Of a stretch of 31,030 nucleotides of DNA, positions 16,914 to 21,591 are shown piece after piece (within the stretch, counting starts at the first letter, position 1; the number at the start of each line of letters is the position of its first letter). The stretch is taken from the IMG/VR virus record IMGVR_UViG_3300048592_000737, positions 1 through 31,030 of that record, one strand, 5' to 3'. The stretch is from a virus. The notes beneath the pieces were generated by a model. That model worked only from the letters and a program-made list of their open reading frames with translations, made no database searches and was not told the origin of the DNA. The position numbers and the translations under genes were made by a program.

Positions 16914-19900
16914 TCATAACTTGCGCACGTAGCGCGATTTGATGTCATCCAACAGCACCAGCAACTCGTTCTCATCATCGCCGAGATACATGGTCTTGTC
17001 AATGCCAAATCCATAAAAGCCAATCACCCGATGGAGCGGGACATCCTGTTCGGTCATATAAGACCCCTCGACCTTAATGCCCCGCAGCAGTGACGTGCTG
17101 TCTGCGGCGCCACGCTCCAGCATGGCCGTGGCCCCTTTACGTAGCTTCATGCCGTACTTTTGGAGCACATCTAGACTCTCCGTGCGGATCAGGGTGAGCA
17201 CCCCCGCTTGGGGCCGATTCCCAACCTCGACCCGGCGCAGCGTCTCATAGCTGAATGCATTCAACGCCGCCGCGTAATCGGTCACAGCGTCGTGGTCGTA
17301 CAGCTTTCGCAGATCATTCAAGCCCTGTTGGTCCCATGATGACATGTCTCGCCAGTAGTAGGTATCGCTTGGCCGATTTTTCGCCAGTGCCTCTTTTACA
17401 AGTCGGCTCCGTCCCGACCACGAGCTAAACGATTGCGAACTCGACCACTCTTTGATGAATTTTGCACCGCGTCCACCAGTGCGCTGATCGAGCTTGCTTA
17501 GGAAATCAGCATAAATGCCGGACTTGCCACGTAGGTCATCGAACTCATTGCCGTTCTCATCAACTAGCACCACATATTTCGACGTGGGATCTGACCACGT
17601 CAGGCGCTGGGGCAACCTGCCCGCCACCCCACTCGACTGAATCCAGGTATTGTGATAACTGAAACGGTCGATGTAGGTATCGACATACTTGTCGTCATGG
17701 AACGTACGATAAATCTGAGCGAGGTCGGCGGCGTGGTCAAGCCGCGCTGTCATGACACTGCGGAGCGCGGGGTCGCTAATCTGTCCCATTATAGCATCCC
17801 GCTTGCTGACAATAGCTGACAGTTGGTTAGCAATTTCCCCGTATTTCATGTTCCCAAAGACATTGAACGTCTGTTGATTAATCGCTGAATCGCGCAGCGT
17901 CCACAGTTCGTCCACATAGTTGGATAGCGCCTTGGGCGCGCCCTGCGCCCGGAAGAGCAGCGACCCGCCATTGTCGATGCGCCAAGCCTTGCCCTGGCGG
18001 TCCACGATGATGTTGTCGGCGCCCATGCCGATGACATCCCACGAGCCGAGCAGCGCGTCGGCTGCGAAGTGCTTTTGCAGTTGCCAGCGCGCCGCGGTGA
18101 GCTGGCTCCCGGTCAACTCGTTGAGCAGCCGGCCTTCGATATACTCGGCGATTTTGTACGTCGTGCCGTTGCGCTCGACCAGCCGCGCCCGCGGCACGTT
18201 GGCCCCGAGCGTGCGATAGAGTTCATCAGCCAGGTACTCGCTGCGTACGTGCGCATTGGATGACCCGCTCTTGACGACGTAGCGCGTGCCCGTGGCGTCC
18301 TCGAAGAGTTCGGCCCCCGTCGAGCCGCCCAACCGCTTGACGAATTTGAGCTGGTCCAAGTCGGGGATGGCGGCCGGCAACGGCGCGGGCGGCGCAACTG
18401 GCGCGGGCACGGGTACGCCGTAGCGCTCTGGGTAAAGCTTGCGTAGCGCCGCCTCGAGCACGTCGCGATCGCGCTGCACGTTGAGCAAGCCGGCCACCTG
18501 GTCCACGGGTACGAGTTTAACCGTTGCCGTCTCCCAGTCGGAGCGCCACGGCGCACCGCCGGTGCGCTTGGCGAGATAGTAGCGTGTGGTGCCCGTGGTG
18601 CCCTGGAAGTCGCCAACGTAGCCCGTGATTTTCGCCTGTAGCCCGGACTCCTCCCAAGCCTCTTTGAGCGCGTTCTGCTGCGGGGTCAGCCCGCTCTCTA
18701 GCCCGCCTTTAGGCCAGGTCTGCTGGTAGCCGCCAAAATGGTTGGTCGGCTCGACCACCCACATGCGGCCATCCGGCTCGACAATGACGAGGCCGGTGCT
18801 AATGCGTTGGCCGGCGGGCAGCGCCGGCTCGTCAGTGGCGACGTTGCGGAGCTTGGCCCAGTTGCGCGCCGCGGCCGGCTTGAGCGCCACCCCATTGAGC
18901 CGTTGCCCGGCATAAAGCGGGTCTTTGCCCCAGACGATGGTCGCGCCTGCATCGGTGAGCGGCGCGGGGTCCACCGGTGCCGTGGGCGCGGGTGGACGCC
19001 CGCCCCGTGCGTCCACCGGCAACGGCGGCGCCGCGGTTGGGGCAACCGTCGGCGCGGTTGCCGGGCGGGCGGCCGGCGTCTGGCCGAGCAGCAGCGCCTC
19101 AAACTCGGCGGTCTGCACGGGCCCGATTTTGTTGACCAACTCCTGGCGCGCCTTGCGAATGTCAGCGCGCAGGGCATCAATGATGGCGTCGGGGTCGGGC
19201 GTGGTGACGTAGGTGGAAAAACATAGGCAATTGTGCACCACTGCCCCACCAACGGTATAGCTATGGTCGTCAGCAACGGTCATGTTGTACACGTTGCCAG
19301 TATATTGCAATGTACTGACAGAACGGACCATGCTATAATGGTTCAGGGCTTGGGAGGGATTAGCTACCTCTCCGACAACTGAGTTTCCTGACTCAGCGCC
19401 CCACTGCTCATCAGGATCTAGTGACAGGAGACTACCATGATGACTTGCCCCATTTGCGGCACCAAGCTGCCCGACTTTCGTGGACACGATAGGGTTCACG
19501 GCGTCGCCGCCGCAAAACTCCACGCCGGCCGACTCGAGGCTGAAACCGGCAAACCCATCGGTCAATTGCTGACCGAAATCTACGTTGAGCAGCGGCTCTC
19601 TAGTAATCAAATCTTCAAAGAGTACCGTATCACCTACCGCATCCTGCGCGACCTGCTCGCTACGTGCAATATCCCTATGCGCGATAGAAGCGACGCCGTT
19701 GCCGCCAGTTGGGAGAAGGATGACGGGAGTCGCAGCGAAGCGACTGCGGATAAGATGAAGGAGACAATGGAACGATTCGATTACACCGGCGACAACAACC
19801 CAGCCAAGCGCCCAGAGGTCGCGAAAAAGATATCTGAGGCAAAGCGTGAGTCGAACCCAGGCCTGACACACTTCGCATCCTGGAATAGTCACCAGTCGCT

Positions 19901-21422
19901 CTACGGCCGTATTACGAAGAGATGCGCTTACTGCAATGAGCCATTCGAGGTAAAGAAGAGCCATGCCTATCAGCGCCACTGCTCTTTCGCTTGCGCTTGC
20001 AAGGGCGCGGACCGTAGCCAGAGCGAACTTCTCATGGCCAAAGCCCTGCGGCGGGCAAACATCGCCTTTGAGGAACAGCACCCCGTCGGCAGATTTGTCG
20101 TCGATCTTGCCATTGTCGATCTCTGCGTCGCCATCGAATGCGATGGGGCTGGGTGGCACGCCCTGAATGCTGACACCGACGCCAGACGCGACGATATACT
20201 TTTGTCTTTGGGGTGGTATACATTCCGATATAAAAGCCAGGCCATCCACCGGAGCGCCGACGCCTGCGTACAAGATCTCATCACCCGCCTTGACGCTCTC
20301 GGCATTACACCACCCAGAGCGTAACATCACCGGATGATTGCCGGTGACTTCCAACGTACCGGCATCCGTCTCGAACCGATACACTGTCCCATCGTGGGGC
20401 GTAGACCACGCCACCAACACCGGCCGGTAGCGCCCCCGATGGGTAAGCACCCAGTCACCCTCTCGAATCTCCTCAATCGGCACATTGCCGCGCAACGTCG
20501 CCACCATCTGCCCAGGCGTAACGCATTGCGGATGGGGTCTTCCAGGATAGCTCTCAATGGGGTATACACCGTCCCCGTTTGGCCCCCCGCGGGCATAGGT
20601 GTCGCAGATGTCTGGCTTAGGGTGCGATGGGGAGAGCATCCACTGGATGCCCTGCACAAATGGATTCATCGCCGCCGCCGCCCGCGTCGCCTCTGTGCTG
20701 GCCCGTGTAATCTCGGTCCGCGCCAACCGCATGGCGTCGTAACTGGCGCTCTTGCCATAGGGCGCCGACGTGCGCAGGTTGGCCCGGCTCGGCATGAGGA
20801 AGCGCTCCAGCTCCCGGCTCATGGCCAGTGCGCCCCGCCCCTCGCGGATGGCCGTCTCGAGATATAGGTCGATTTGCCGCCGCGTGTGCGCGGTCGTGTT
20901 CCACACCCGGTCACTCAGTCGGTAGCCACGCGGGTCAACCCACGTATGGGGCGCCTCGTACTGGGCCAGTGGGTTGGGCCGGAACACCTCGACCTCGCTG
21001 ACCATCGCCCGCGCCTCGGCAAACGGGTCCACCGTCCCCCGGCGCATCACCGCCAGCACATCCGCCGGCAGCCGCTTGGCCAGCATGGCCGCGTTCTGCT
21101 CGACCGGCAACCCCACCACCGTGGTGATGGCCTGCCACAAGATGCGCATGTAGGGGGAGAGGGGCAGCAGCCGACCGTTGGCCAGCAGCTCGAAGGGCGC
21201 CAACTCACCGGCGCGGTTGCGGCCGAGAAACATGGCCTGCACACGGTCGGCAGCCCGGCGCTGGAGGTCGAGGGTGGCGGCGCGGGGGACGTTGCCATCG
21301 GCATCGGCGACGCGGGCGAGGTCCGCGGTGATGCCGGCGGCGAGGTCGGCAAAGGCGCGGTTCAGCGCCCGCTCGGCAGTGGCCATTGCCGTGAGGAAGC
21401 GGCTACGGTAGGACTGAGGCAC
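16914..21422 (-). CDS. Minor head protein (Mu F/SPP1 gp7-like) with intein, Nudix-like, kinase-like and ADP-ribosyltransferase domains
   Basis: 1502 codons from GTG 21422, chosen because it follows the stop of the 55-residue gene by one base and has GAAGGTGG upstream; an ATG at 21509 would add 29 residues overlapping that gene. Residues 1-299 are a head-morphogenesis domain ending YDAMRLARTEITRAS...PSHPKPDICD...PGRPHPQ; the intein is residues 300-731 and the extein resumes CLCFSTYV. Then ~840-990 is Nudix-like (GGLESGLT...KEAWEESGL near 903-925). Residues ~1020-1200 resemble HipA/PI-kinases (GGSTGAE, YVVKSG, GADNIIVD, RIDNGGS). The last ~130 residues carry the R-S-E ADP-ribosyltransferase pattern: Arg in LIRTES ~1411, STS ~1440, E-N-E ~1484. 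After splicing the protein would be 1070 residues. It could be packaged and injected (inference). Confidence 0.85.
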   Translation of the reverse strand: MPQSYRSRFLTAMATAERALNRAFADLAAGITADLARVADADGNVPRAATLDLQRRAADRVQAMFLGRNRAGELAPFELLANGRLLPLSPYMRILWQAITTVVGLPVEQNAAMLAKRLPADVLAVMRRGTVDPFAEARAMVSEVEVFRPNPLAQYEAPHTWVDPRGYRLSDRVWNTTAHTRRQIDLYLETAIREGRGALAMSRELERFLMPSRANLRTSAPYGKSASYDAMRLARTEITRASTEATRAAAAMNPFVQGIQWMLSPSHPKPDICDTYARGGPNGDGVYPIESYPGRPHPQCVTPGQMVATLRGNVPIEEIREGDWVLTHRGRYRPVLVAWSTPHDGTVYRFETDAGTLEVTGNHPVMLRSGWCNAESVKAGDEILYAGVGAPVDGLAFISECIPPQRQKYIVASGVGVSIQGVPPSPIAFDGDAEIDNGKIDDKSADGVLFLKGDVCPPQGFGHEKFALATVRALASASERAVALIGMALLYLEWLIAVSASLRNTAVERLVTIPGCEVCQAWVRLTLCLRYLFRDLWALGWVVVAGVIESFHCLLHLIRSRFAATPVILLPTGGNGVASIAHRDIARSEQVAQDAVGDTVLFEDLITREPLLNVDFGQQLTDGFAGFSLESAGVEFCGGDAVNPIVSTKVGQLGAANGASHHGSLLSLDPDEQWGAESGNSVVGEVANPSQALNHYSMVRSVSTLQYTGNVYNMTVADDHSYTVGGAVVHNCLCFSTYVTTPDPDAIIDALRADIRKARQELVNKIGPVQTAEFEALLLGQTPAARPATAPTVAPTAAPPLPVDARGGRPPAPTAPVDPAPLTDAGATIVWGKDPLYAGQRLNGVALKPAAARNWAKLRNVATDEPALPAGQRISTGLVIVEPDGRMWVVEPTNHFGGYQQTWPKGGLESGLTPQQNALKEAWEESGLQAKITGYVGDFQGTTGTTRYYLAKRTGGAPWRSDWETATVKLVPVDQVAGLLNVQRDRDVLEAALRKLYPERYGVPVPAPVAPPAPLPAAIPDLDQLKFVKRLGGSTGAELFEDATGTRYVVKSGSSNAHVRSEYLADELYRTLGANVPRARLVERNGTTYKIAEYIEGRLLNELTGSQLTAARWQLQKHFAADALLGSWDVIGMGADNIIVDRQGKAWRIDNGGSLLFRAQGAPKALSNYVDELWTLRDSAINQQTFNVFGNMKYGEIANQLSAIVSKRDAIMGQISDPALRSVMTARLDHAADLAQIYRTFHDDKYVDTYIDRFSYHNTWIQSSGVAGRLPQRLTWSDPTSKYVVLVDENGNEFDDLRGKSGIYADFLSKLDQRTGGRGAKFIKEWSSSQSFSSWSGRSRLVKEALAKNRPSDTYYWRDMSSWDQQGLNDLRKLYDHDAVTDYAAALNAFSYETLRRVEVGNRPQAGVLTLIRTESLDVLQKYGMKLRKGATAMLERGAADSTSLLRGIKVEGSYMTEQDVPLHRVIGFYGFGIDKTMYLGDDENELLVLLDDIKSRYVRKL
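19331..19339 (+). promoter_or_regulatory. Extended -10 promoter for the antisense endonuclease
   Basis: TGC-TATAAT is a perfect extended -10 on the plus strand. No good -35 is seen at 17 bases (TGTACT), which is normal for extended -10 promoters. It lies inside the minus-strand codons of the intein's C-terminal splicing domain (NHYSMV), about 100 bases before the endonuclease ATG. The same TGnTATAATGG string precedes the HNH gene. Confidence 0.65.
19426..19430 (+). promoter_or_regulatory. Shine-Dalgarno site of the antisense endonuclease
   Basis: AGGAG spaced 6 bases from ATG 19437. It supports plus-strand translation and fixes the start, and is preceded by a small hairpin (CTGAGT / ACTCAG, about 19379-19396). 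Confidence 0.7.
19437..20324 (+). CDS. Vsr/DUF559-like (EDxHD-type) homing endonuclease encoded antisense inside the intein
   Basis: A 295-residue protein on the plus strand, the only convincing gene there. The ATG has AGGAG 7 bases upstream and an extended -10 about 100 bases upstream. In order: a zinc-finger-like start (C4-x2-C7, then H17-x3-H21), an HTH-like segment (LSSNQIFKEYRITYRILRDLL, ~54-74), a NUMOD3-like motif (TGDNNPAKRPEVAKKISEAK, ~117-136), a Cys pattern C163/C166/C182/C186, and a C-terminal nuclease fold (~194-290). Nuclease residues E197, D223 (VVDLAIVD), E234-C-D236-G-x-x-W-H241 and D252/D253 match Vsr-like PD-(D/E)XK enzymes. NUMOD plus Vsr-like nuclease is characteristic of homing enzymes, so it probably cuts the intein-free minor head gene (inference). 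Confidence 0.88.
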   Translation: MMTCPICGTKLPDFRGHDRVHGVAAAKLHAGRLEAETGKPIGQLLTEIYVEQRLSSNQIFKEYRITYRILRDLLATCNIPMRDRSDAVAASWEKDDGSRSEATADKMKETMERFDYTGDNNPAKRPEVAKKISEAKRESNPGLTHFASWNSHQSLYGRITKRCAYCNEPFEVKKSHAYQRHCSFACACKGADRSQSELLMAKALRRANIAFEEQHPVGRFVVDLAIVDLCVAIECDGAGWHALNADTDARRDDILLSLGWYTFRYKSQAIHRSADACVQDLITRLDALGITPPRA

Positions 21423-21423
21423 G

Positions 21424-21591
21424 CTACGCCACCTTCGCGCCGTCGCCCGGCTTGGGCTTCGCTTTGGCCTTGGCGGCTTTTCCGCCAGGCTTGGCGGCTT
21501 TTCCGCCATCCACCGCCGCCAACAACGCGGCCAGCAGCTCGTTGGTGCGCTGCAATTCCGCCAGCAACGCCGCGAATTGTGCCTGGTTCAT
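21424..21591 (-). CDS. Small coiled-coil, lysine-rich-tail protein (55 residues)
   Basis: MNQAQFAALLAELQRTNELLAALLAAVDGG is an amphipathic helix followed by a Lys/Ala/Pro/Gly-rich basic tail (GKAAKAKAKPKPGDGAK). The ATG overlaps the stop of the 29-residue gene (ATGA), and the stop is one base from the minor head GTG, so all are likely coupled. The basic tail could bind DNA or RNA. No family recognised. Confidence 0.6.
   Translation of the reverse strand: MNQAQFAALLAELQRTNELLAALLAAVDGGKAAKPGGKAAKAKAKPKPGDGAKVA

Follow-up and report, generated by a model that had tools for sequence, protein, structure and literature searches.

An intein and an antisense endonuclease gene in one head gene

The stretch of DNA analyzed here, referred to as the window, is the 31,030-base virus record IMGVR_UViG_3300048592_000737, in which a MuF-like minor head gene contains an intein and the intein in turn contains a homing endonuclease (HEN) gene on the opposite strand. 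The head gene is a single open reading frame (ORF) of 1531 amino acids at 21509-16914 on the minus strand, with the intein as residues 329-760. The HEN gene lies antisense to the intein frame and codon-on-codon with it, leaving 67 intein residues on one side and 69 on the other. Confidence values below are from the predicted local distance difference test (pLDDT) of an AlphaFold model of the intein.

20526..21509, minus strand: N-extein, MuF-like minor head protein, ending ...RPHPQ right before intein Cys1
19230..20525, minus strand: intein, 432 amino acids, Cys1 to Asn432 (translation; PT-HINT and PF14890 matches; HINT fold)
20256..20525, minus strand: N-terminal half of the HINT splicing domain, residues 1-90, with Cys1, VLTHRGRY and TGNHPV; pLDDT 85-98; columns invariant across 19 inteins
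19353..20255, minus strand: intein center, residues 91-391, mostly antisense of the HEN; pLDDT about 29-70, mostly below 60
19230..19352, minus strand: C-terminal part of the HINT domain, residues 392-432, with YNMTVADDHSYT and VVHN; pLDDT 93-98 over residues 401-432
16914..19229, minus strand: C-extein, starting CLCF..., with Cys+1 at 19227-19229 and a NUDIX domain further on
19437..20324, plus strand: HEN gene, 295 amino acids, ATG to TAA, spanning intein residues 68-363
20034..20291, plus strand: Vsr/DUF559/EDxHD-like nuclease domain of the HEN, amino acids 200-285 (PF18741, PF04480; PDB matches of the family profile)
19566..19688, plus strand: probable DNA-binding helix-turn-helix region of the HEN, about amino acids 44-84, aligning with the same region of Vibrio phage HENs, where helix-turn-helix families match the relatives
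19426..19430, plus strand: Shine-Dalgarno sequence AGGAG of the HEN, 6 nucleotides before the ATG; similar sites precede several other antisense HENs

The minus frame from 20525 to 19230 runs through 432 codons without a stop and has the residues of a class-1 intein in place, as a preliminary description of the window had proposed. These are Cys1 in CVTPGQ, the block B motif TxxH as TGNH at residues 61-64 within TGNHPV (T61 and H64 are invariant in 19 inteins), YNMTV, and the terminal His-Asn of VVHN followed by Cys+1. Profile searches matched PT-HINT (4.9e-9) and Intein_splicing PF14890 (3.2e-8), the latter with 34.0 bits, slightly under its curated cut-off of 35.8. The AlphaFold model was built with a 15-sequence alignment, and the pLDDT was only 34.7 when the alignment was omitted. 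With it, values reached 95-98 for residues 1-80 and 93-98 for residues 401-432, and were mostly below 60 between them. The HINT fold is thus predicted to be intact and the antisense-derived insert is modeled with low confidence; the nearest Foldseek match to the model is the gp41-1 intein (4.8e-6).

The exteins and the insertion site are consistent with this assignment. The head morphogenesis profile phrog_1657 matches amino acids 192-330 of the N-extein at 2.6e-37, and the match stops at the intein. Phages without an intein at the insertion site of the window read PHPQCLC and similar, and the intein-free homologues with an intact HPxC site that had been suggested as a check were found in Gordonia phage Sadboi (...PHPQCLCY...), phiCD27 (...HPHCLC...) and BalMu-1 (...HPNCIC...). 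An Rfam scan of 18900-20800 returned no RNA family, and an intron reading is therefore not supported. The NUDIX domain of the C-extein (1e-11; window 16914-19229) is an unusual fusion partner to find in a minor head protein.

On the plus strand, the HEN matches REase_MTES_1575 (PF18741) at 2.9e-13 and DUF559 (PF04480) at 3.4e-12, both over the curated cut-offs. A profile of the antisense-HEN family, searched against the PDB, matched 3hrl at 5e-19 and the "Mobile intron protein" 3r3p, which we take to be I-Bth0305I, an EDxHD-type enzyme, at 1.8e-7; the match to Vsr (1cw0) was marginal at 0.01. Catalytic residues E, D, E and H are invariant in 12 antisense HENs, and the second acidic residue of ExDG and a D further on come close to invariance. 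The window HEN is an intact ORF that has the E...D...ExDG..H...D pattern in common with these relatives. The preliminary description had identified the plus-strand ORF as a Vsr/DUF559-type endonuclease, and had proposed that it takes the place of the usual in-frame endonuclease, the intein tolerating an antisense-derived linker; profiles, relatives and the structure model back both statements. Its claim that the HEN has its own ribosome site and promoter stands only for the ribosome site, as a search of 19200-20600 found no sigma-70-like promoter.

Of the antisense frames of the HEN, the one that overlaps the intein has no stops and the other two have 11 and 10. G+C by codon position over the overlap is 0.58/0.46/0.66, as would be expected if the plus frame is the one that codes. 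G+C-rich loci often have long antisense ORFs in this phase, so the ORF might be a coincidence of high G+C and a synonymous phase instead of a gene. The comparisons with other phages that follow bear on this alternative.

Recurrence in other phages

The preliminary description treated the arrangement as a single case, a view that has to be given up, as it recurs in many independent phages. Viral contigs were scanned with a MuF/intein N-terminal block, a search blind to endonucleases, which yielded 58 intein loci. Eleven of these have an antisense HEN in the same place, ten of Vsr type (L020-L025, L029, L036, L037 and L042) and one of LAGLIDADG type (L028). By sequence context all eleven sit in MuF-type genes, a restriction that is provisional because the search block favors MuF-like inteins. 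Pfam nuclease models (DUF559 or MTES_1575) match every one of the ten Vsr-type ORFs, with a best value of 2.9e-16, but none of the 73 control ORFs, which lie antisense over the other viral inteins. This difference argues against coincidence, as does the presence of antisense HENs in A+T-richer loci, where the G+C of the HEN is 0.42-0.46. A further 51 intein loci from cellular-genome contigs contained no antisense Vsr-type HEN. One of the 73 control ORFs (alignment A6) matches Phage_ABA_S at 3.1e-11, perhaps as part of a neighboring gene, and a 1015-amino-acid antisense ORF in the same phase over another intein-bearing gene (L071:2930-5974) exceeded the length covered by the control scan.

Cultured phages have the same arrangement. 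Among the relatives of the window intein in these phages are inteins in MuF genes of Gordonia and Vibrio phages, and those read encode a central antisense endonuclease, codon-on-codon with the intein. In Vibrio phages 1.265.O, 1.266.O and 1.082.O the HEN is of DUF559 type (7e-13 and 1.9e-10 in the two scanned, the third being near identical to the second). The Gordonia phages instead have a LAGLIDADG-like antisense protein, recognized by its FIDGEG motif and by similarity to phage homing endonucleases. When antisense HENs were compared with named phages by tblastn, 127 and 90 records matched, and the HEN was opposite to the head gene in all eight inspected (Snoke, KMB36, BPS11Q3, SGPC, KpTDp1, BR313c, Aaphi23 and Vivi2). 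Antisense HENs thus occur in named phages of E. coli, Salmonella, Klebsiella, Pseudomonas, Vibrio and Gordonia. In the records of the inspected cultured phages the head gene is annotated and no endonuclease is annotated on the other strand; that of Snoke annotates the intein and not the HEN. The arrangement brings to light a class of nucleases that standard annotation overlooks.

Other states of MuF-type inteins were also found in the survey, namely a HEN-free mini-intein of 152 amino acids (L033), inteins with an in-frame HNH endonuclease (L045-L047), and inteins with an in-frame Vsr-type HEN (L051 and L065). Members of this set (L033:1438-1893, L045:4193-5035, L051:3-1097 and L065:3977-4993) form a natural series for the evolution of the antisense form. 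At four loci (L021:4010, L022:395, L023:3629 and L036:4289) the first residue of the intein is apparently Ser or Ala and not Cys. One locus (L042:3089-7279) encodes a portal-MuF fusion with two inteins, of which the one in the portal part has an apparent classical in-frame endonuclease region and the one in the MuF part has the antisense Vsr-type HEN. The "head protein" profile phrog_15127 matches the MuF-intein part of this fusion almost end to end (3.6e-65), and the profile seems to include the antisense-derived stretch.

Selection and codon choice over the overlap

The two frames of the overlap were compared by counting substitutions at intein-frame codon positions 1/2/3 between pairs of relatives. 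For Barsten and Nordenberg the N-extein gives 5/2/25, the part under the HEN 51/6/16, and the remainder 5/2/24. Read in the HEN frame, the codons changed over the HEN in this pair comprise 47 synonymous and 15 non-synonymous ones; read in the intein frame, they comprise 7 and 55. The extein and HEN counts are 19/8/64 against 8/1/1 for Vibrio phages 1.266 and 1.082, and 61/34/136 against 18/3/9 for Snoke and BPS11Q3. Between L025 and L029 the same codons give 70% identity in the HEN and 48% in the intein frame. Since the pattern switches strand exactly over the HEN in these relatives, the antisense frame is the selected one. In the relatives compared, the HEN is thus the protein under constraint throughout its extent, where the intein frame is mainly kept open. 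For the family this refutes the possibility that the antisense ORF is a product of base composition, and the chance that it is one in the window is negligible.

How the intein frame stays open can be read from the codons of the HEN. Given the phase, a stop in the intein frame can arise solely from TTA, CTA or TCA in the HEN. Viral loci were not picked for openness, and the HEN search took in all ORFs of all loci. The HENs of 15 loci have none of these codons, where base composition predicts 61 (nominal P about 1e-29) and host-gene usage 85 (nominal P about 1e-45), both P values counting related HENs as independent. The remaining antisense frames of these HENs carry 5-36 stops, and eight further named phages also have no TTA, CTA or TCA in the HEN. 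The sequences thus indicate that the intein frame is held open by synonymous choice. The preliminary description rightly cautioned that an open frame is no proof in itself; in relatives, these codon counts and the substitution patterns together answer that caution.

The absence of interfering codons also bears on a trans-splicing alternative, in which the head gene would be a fractured gene in two pieces with the HEN between the halves of a split intein. Fractured genes holding Vsr-like endonucleases with split inteins were reportedly described by Dassa et al. in 2009, and like the window they tie a Vsr-like HEN to two intein halves in a phage gene. PMC12350094 cites that work. In addition, the nearest fold to the model, the gp41-1 intein, is consistent with a split intein. 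However, the host gene of a fractured system is broken into two ORFs, and that of the window is unbroken and open through the HEN, making trans-splicing unneeded. The ORF is likewise continuous in every antisense case examined, and no antisense HEN across a broken host frame was present among all ORFs of all viral loci. Zero interfering codons of 61 expected point to selection for reading through the HEN, which argues for translation and cis-splicing and against a split intein; trans-splicing is accordingly a very improbable explanation.

Mobility, mechanism and relation to known systems

Comparison of intein and extein identities shows horizontal movement in relatives. Barsten and SchottB, which belong to different genera by their taxonomy lines, have inteins that are 99-100% identical and exteins that are 90% and 83% identical. 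Conversely, Barsten and Nordenberg share exteins of 96-98% identity and inteins of 67-88%. Snoke (Kagunavirus, E. coli) and BPS11Q3 (Jerseyvirus, Salmonella) are 95% identical over the HEN region and 69% over the N-extein. Phage fEg-Eco19 has an empty allele: an unbroken run of exactly 347 codons that is 98% identical to the Snoke extein once its two parts are joined. This E. coli pair, one phage with the intein and one without, makes homing directly testable in laboratory strains.

These data also address the possibility of intronless homing, in which the HEN would be a parasite in its own right that invades inteins lacking a HEN, the intein being a mere landing site whose movement is not driven by the HEN. 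Several observations favor it: differing HEN families occupy the same kind of site (Vsr and LAGLIDADG antisense, HNH and Vsr in frame), a HEN-free mini-intein exists, and Snoke and its relative KMB36, with exteins 93% and 89% identical, yet have different HENs. In recent transfers, however, the whole intein including the HINT parts is near identical where the exteins have diverged, and intein-free alleles exist, which together render independent homing unlikely. The two E. coli phages (L129:2093-3952 and L134:2039-4009) are an instance of different antisense HENs within the intein of the same head gene.

The best explanation, and a highly probable one, is that the window contains a mobile, cis-splicing class-1-type intein in a MuF-like head gene, with the HEN as a separate, independently expressed gene on the opposite strand. 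The intein sits at an HPx|C site, with the HEN inserted between the two HINT parts at the usual endonuclease site. Translation of the head-gene mRNA would continue without a break across the antisense of the HEN, and the HINT parts would fold around a junk loop and splice the intein out. The HEN, translated from plus-strand RNA, would cut intein-free head-gene alleles, and repair of the cut allele would copy in the whole intein together with the HEN. Selection would keep the splicing frame open via synonymous codons, leaving the enzyme unchanged. In the window copy, both proteins are presumably made and active, with cutting of the target site and early or independent expression of the HEN.

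Several points weigh against this explanation, namely the lack of a sigma-70-like site, the PF14890 score under its cut-off, the nominal nature of the P values, and the fact that scans of viral contigs did not find a close relative of the window's own intein. Such scans gave no match with the single window HEN or N-extein protein as the query, nor with a three-sequence HEN alignment. Because no close relative of the window element was found, selection and mobility apply to the class and its relatives and not to the window copy. Homing endonucleases can decay after fixation, and a decaying HEN in an intein that still splices but has lost its mobility would fit a copy that lacks a near relative for measuring selection. 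The intact ORF, the good ribosome site and the conserved E...D...ExDG..H...D pattern make such decay improbable.

The proposed element resembles a canonical bifunctional intein in its HINT splicing domain, in the insertion site of the endonuclease and in mobility by homing. It differs in that the HEN is a separate opposite-strand gene with its own ribosome site, and the splicing polypeptide holds its meaningless antisense translation instead of an in-frame enzyme. In its catalytic domain and its long multi-domain DNA-binding layout, the HEN of the window resembles EDxHD/Vsr-like HENs such as I-Bth0305I of a mobile group I intron (PDB 3r3p), but its place is within an intein, on the strand opposite the host gene. 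EDxHD enzymes are a family of group I intron HENs (PMC3943268). The antisense form adds to the two arrangements in which inteins carry a HEN, namely fusion in frame and the split gene of fractured systems. It is also a clear phage example of double coding over a long antisense overlap, where selection can be measured on both strands. No earlier description of an antisense-HEN intein was found in the literature; a preprint on "non-canonical" actinophage inteins may overlap, and by its title may include the Gordonia MuF inteins.

In a broader proposal, for and against which the evidence is about evenly poised, antisense-HEN inteins are a distinct and widespread phage architecture (in the survey, in MuF-type head genes only) in which a splicing frame, held open by synonymous choice alone, and an independent nuclease gene evolve on opposite strands, with at least two origins (Vsr-type and LAGLIDADG-type) and with the nuclease freed from late head-gene expression. 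It is conceivable that antisense HENs favor MuF genes because the enzyme would thereby escape late expression.

Another comparison is with the ShiLan-type out-of-frame HNH insertion in phage methylases, where no splicing domain was found (PMC11855218). There too, an endonuclease is hidden in another frame of an insertion and the host frame is kept open. It is described only as another reading frame, without the words "antisense", "reverse" or "opposite" (PMC11855218), whereas the window has a HINT domain and a real intein, with an antisense HEN. Among antisense phases, that of the HEN is the only one where all of the interfering codons (TTA, CTA and TCA) can be replaced by synonyms, and one same-strand frame has the same property. 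The idea that only the antisense phase of the HEN can be opened synonymously proved too strong, as the same-strand frame can be opened likewise and a few HENs allow other phases. The equal synonymous property of the same-strand frame may bear on ShiLan-type insertions (PMC11855218).
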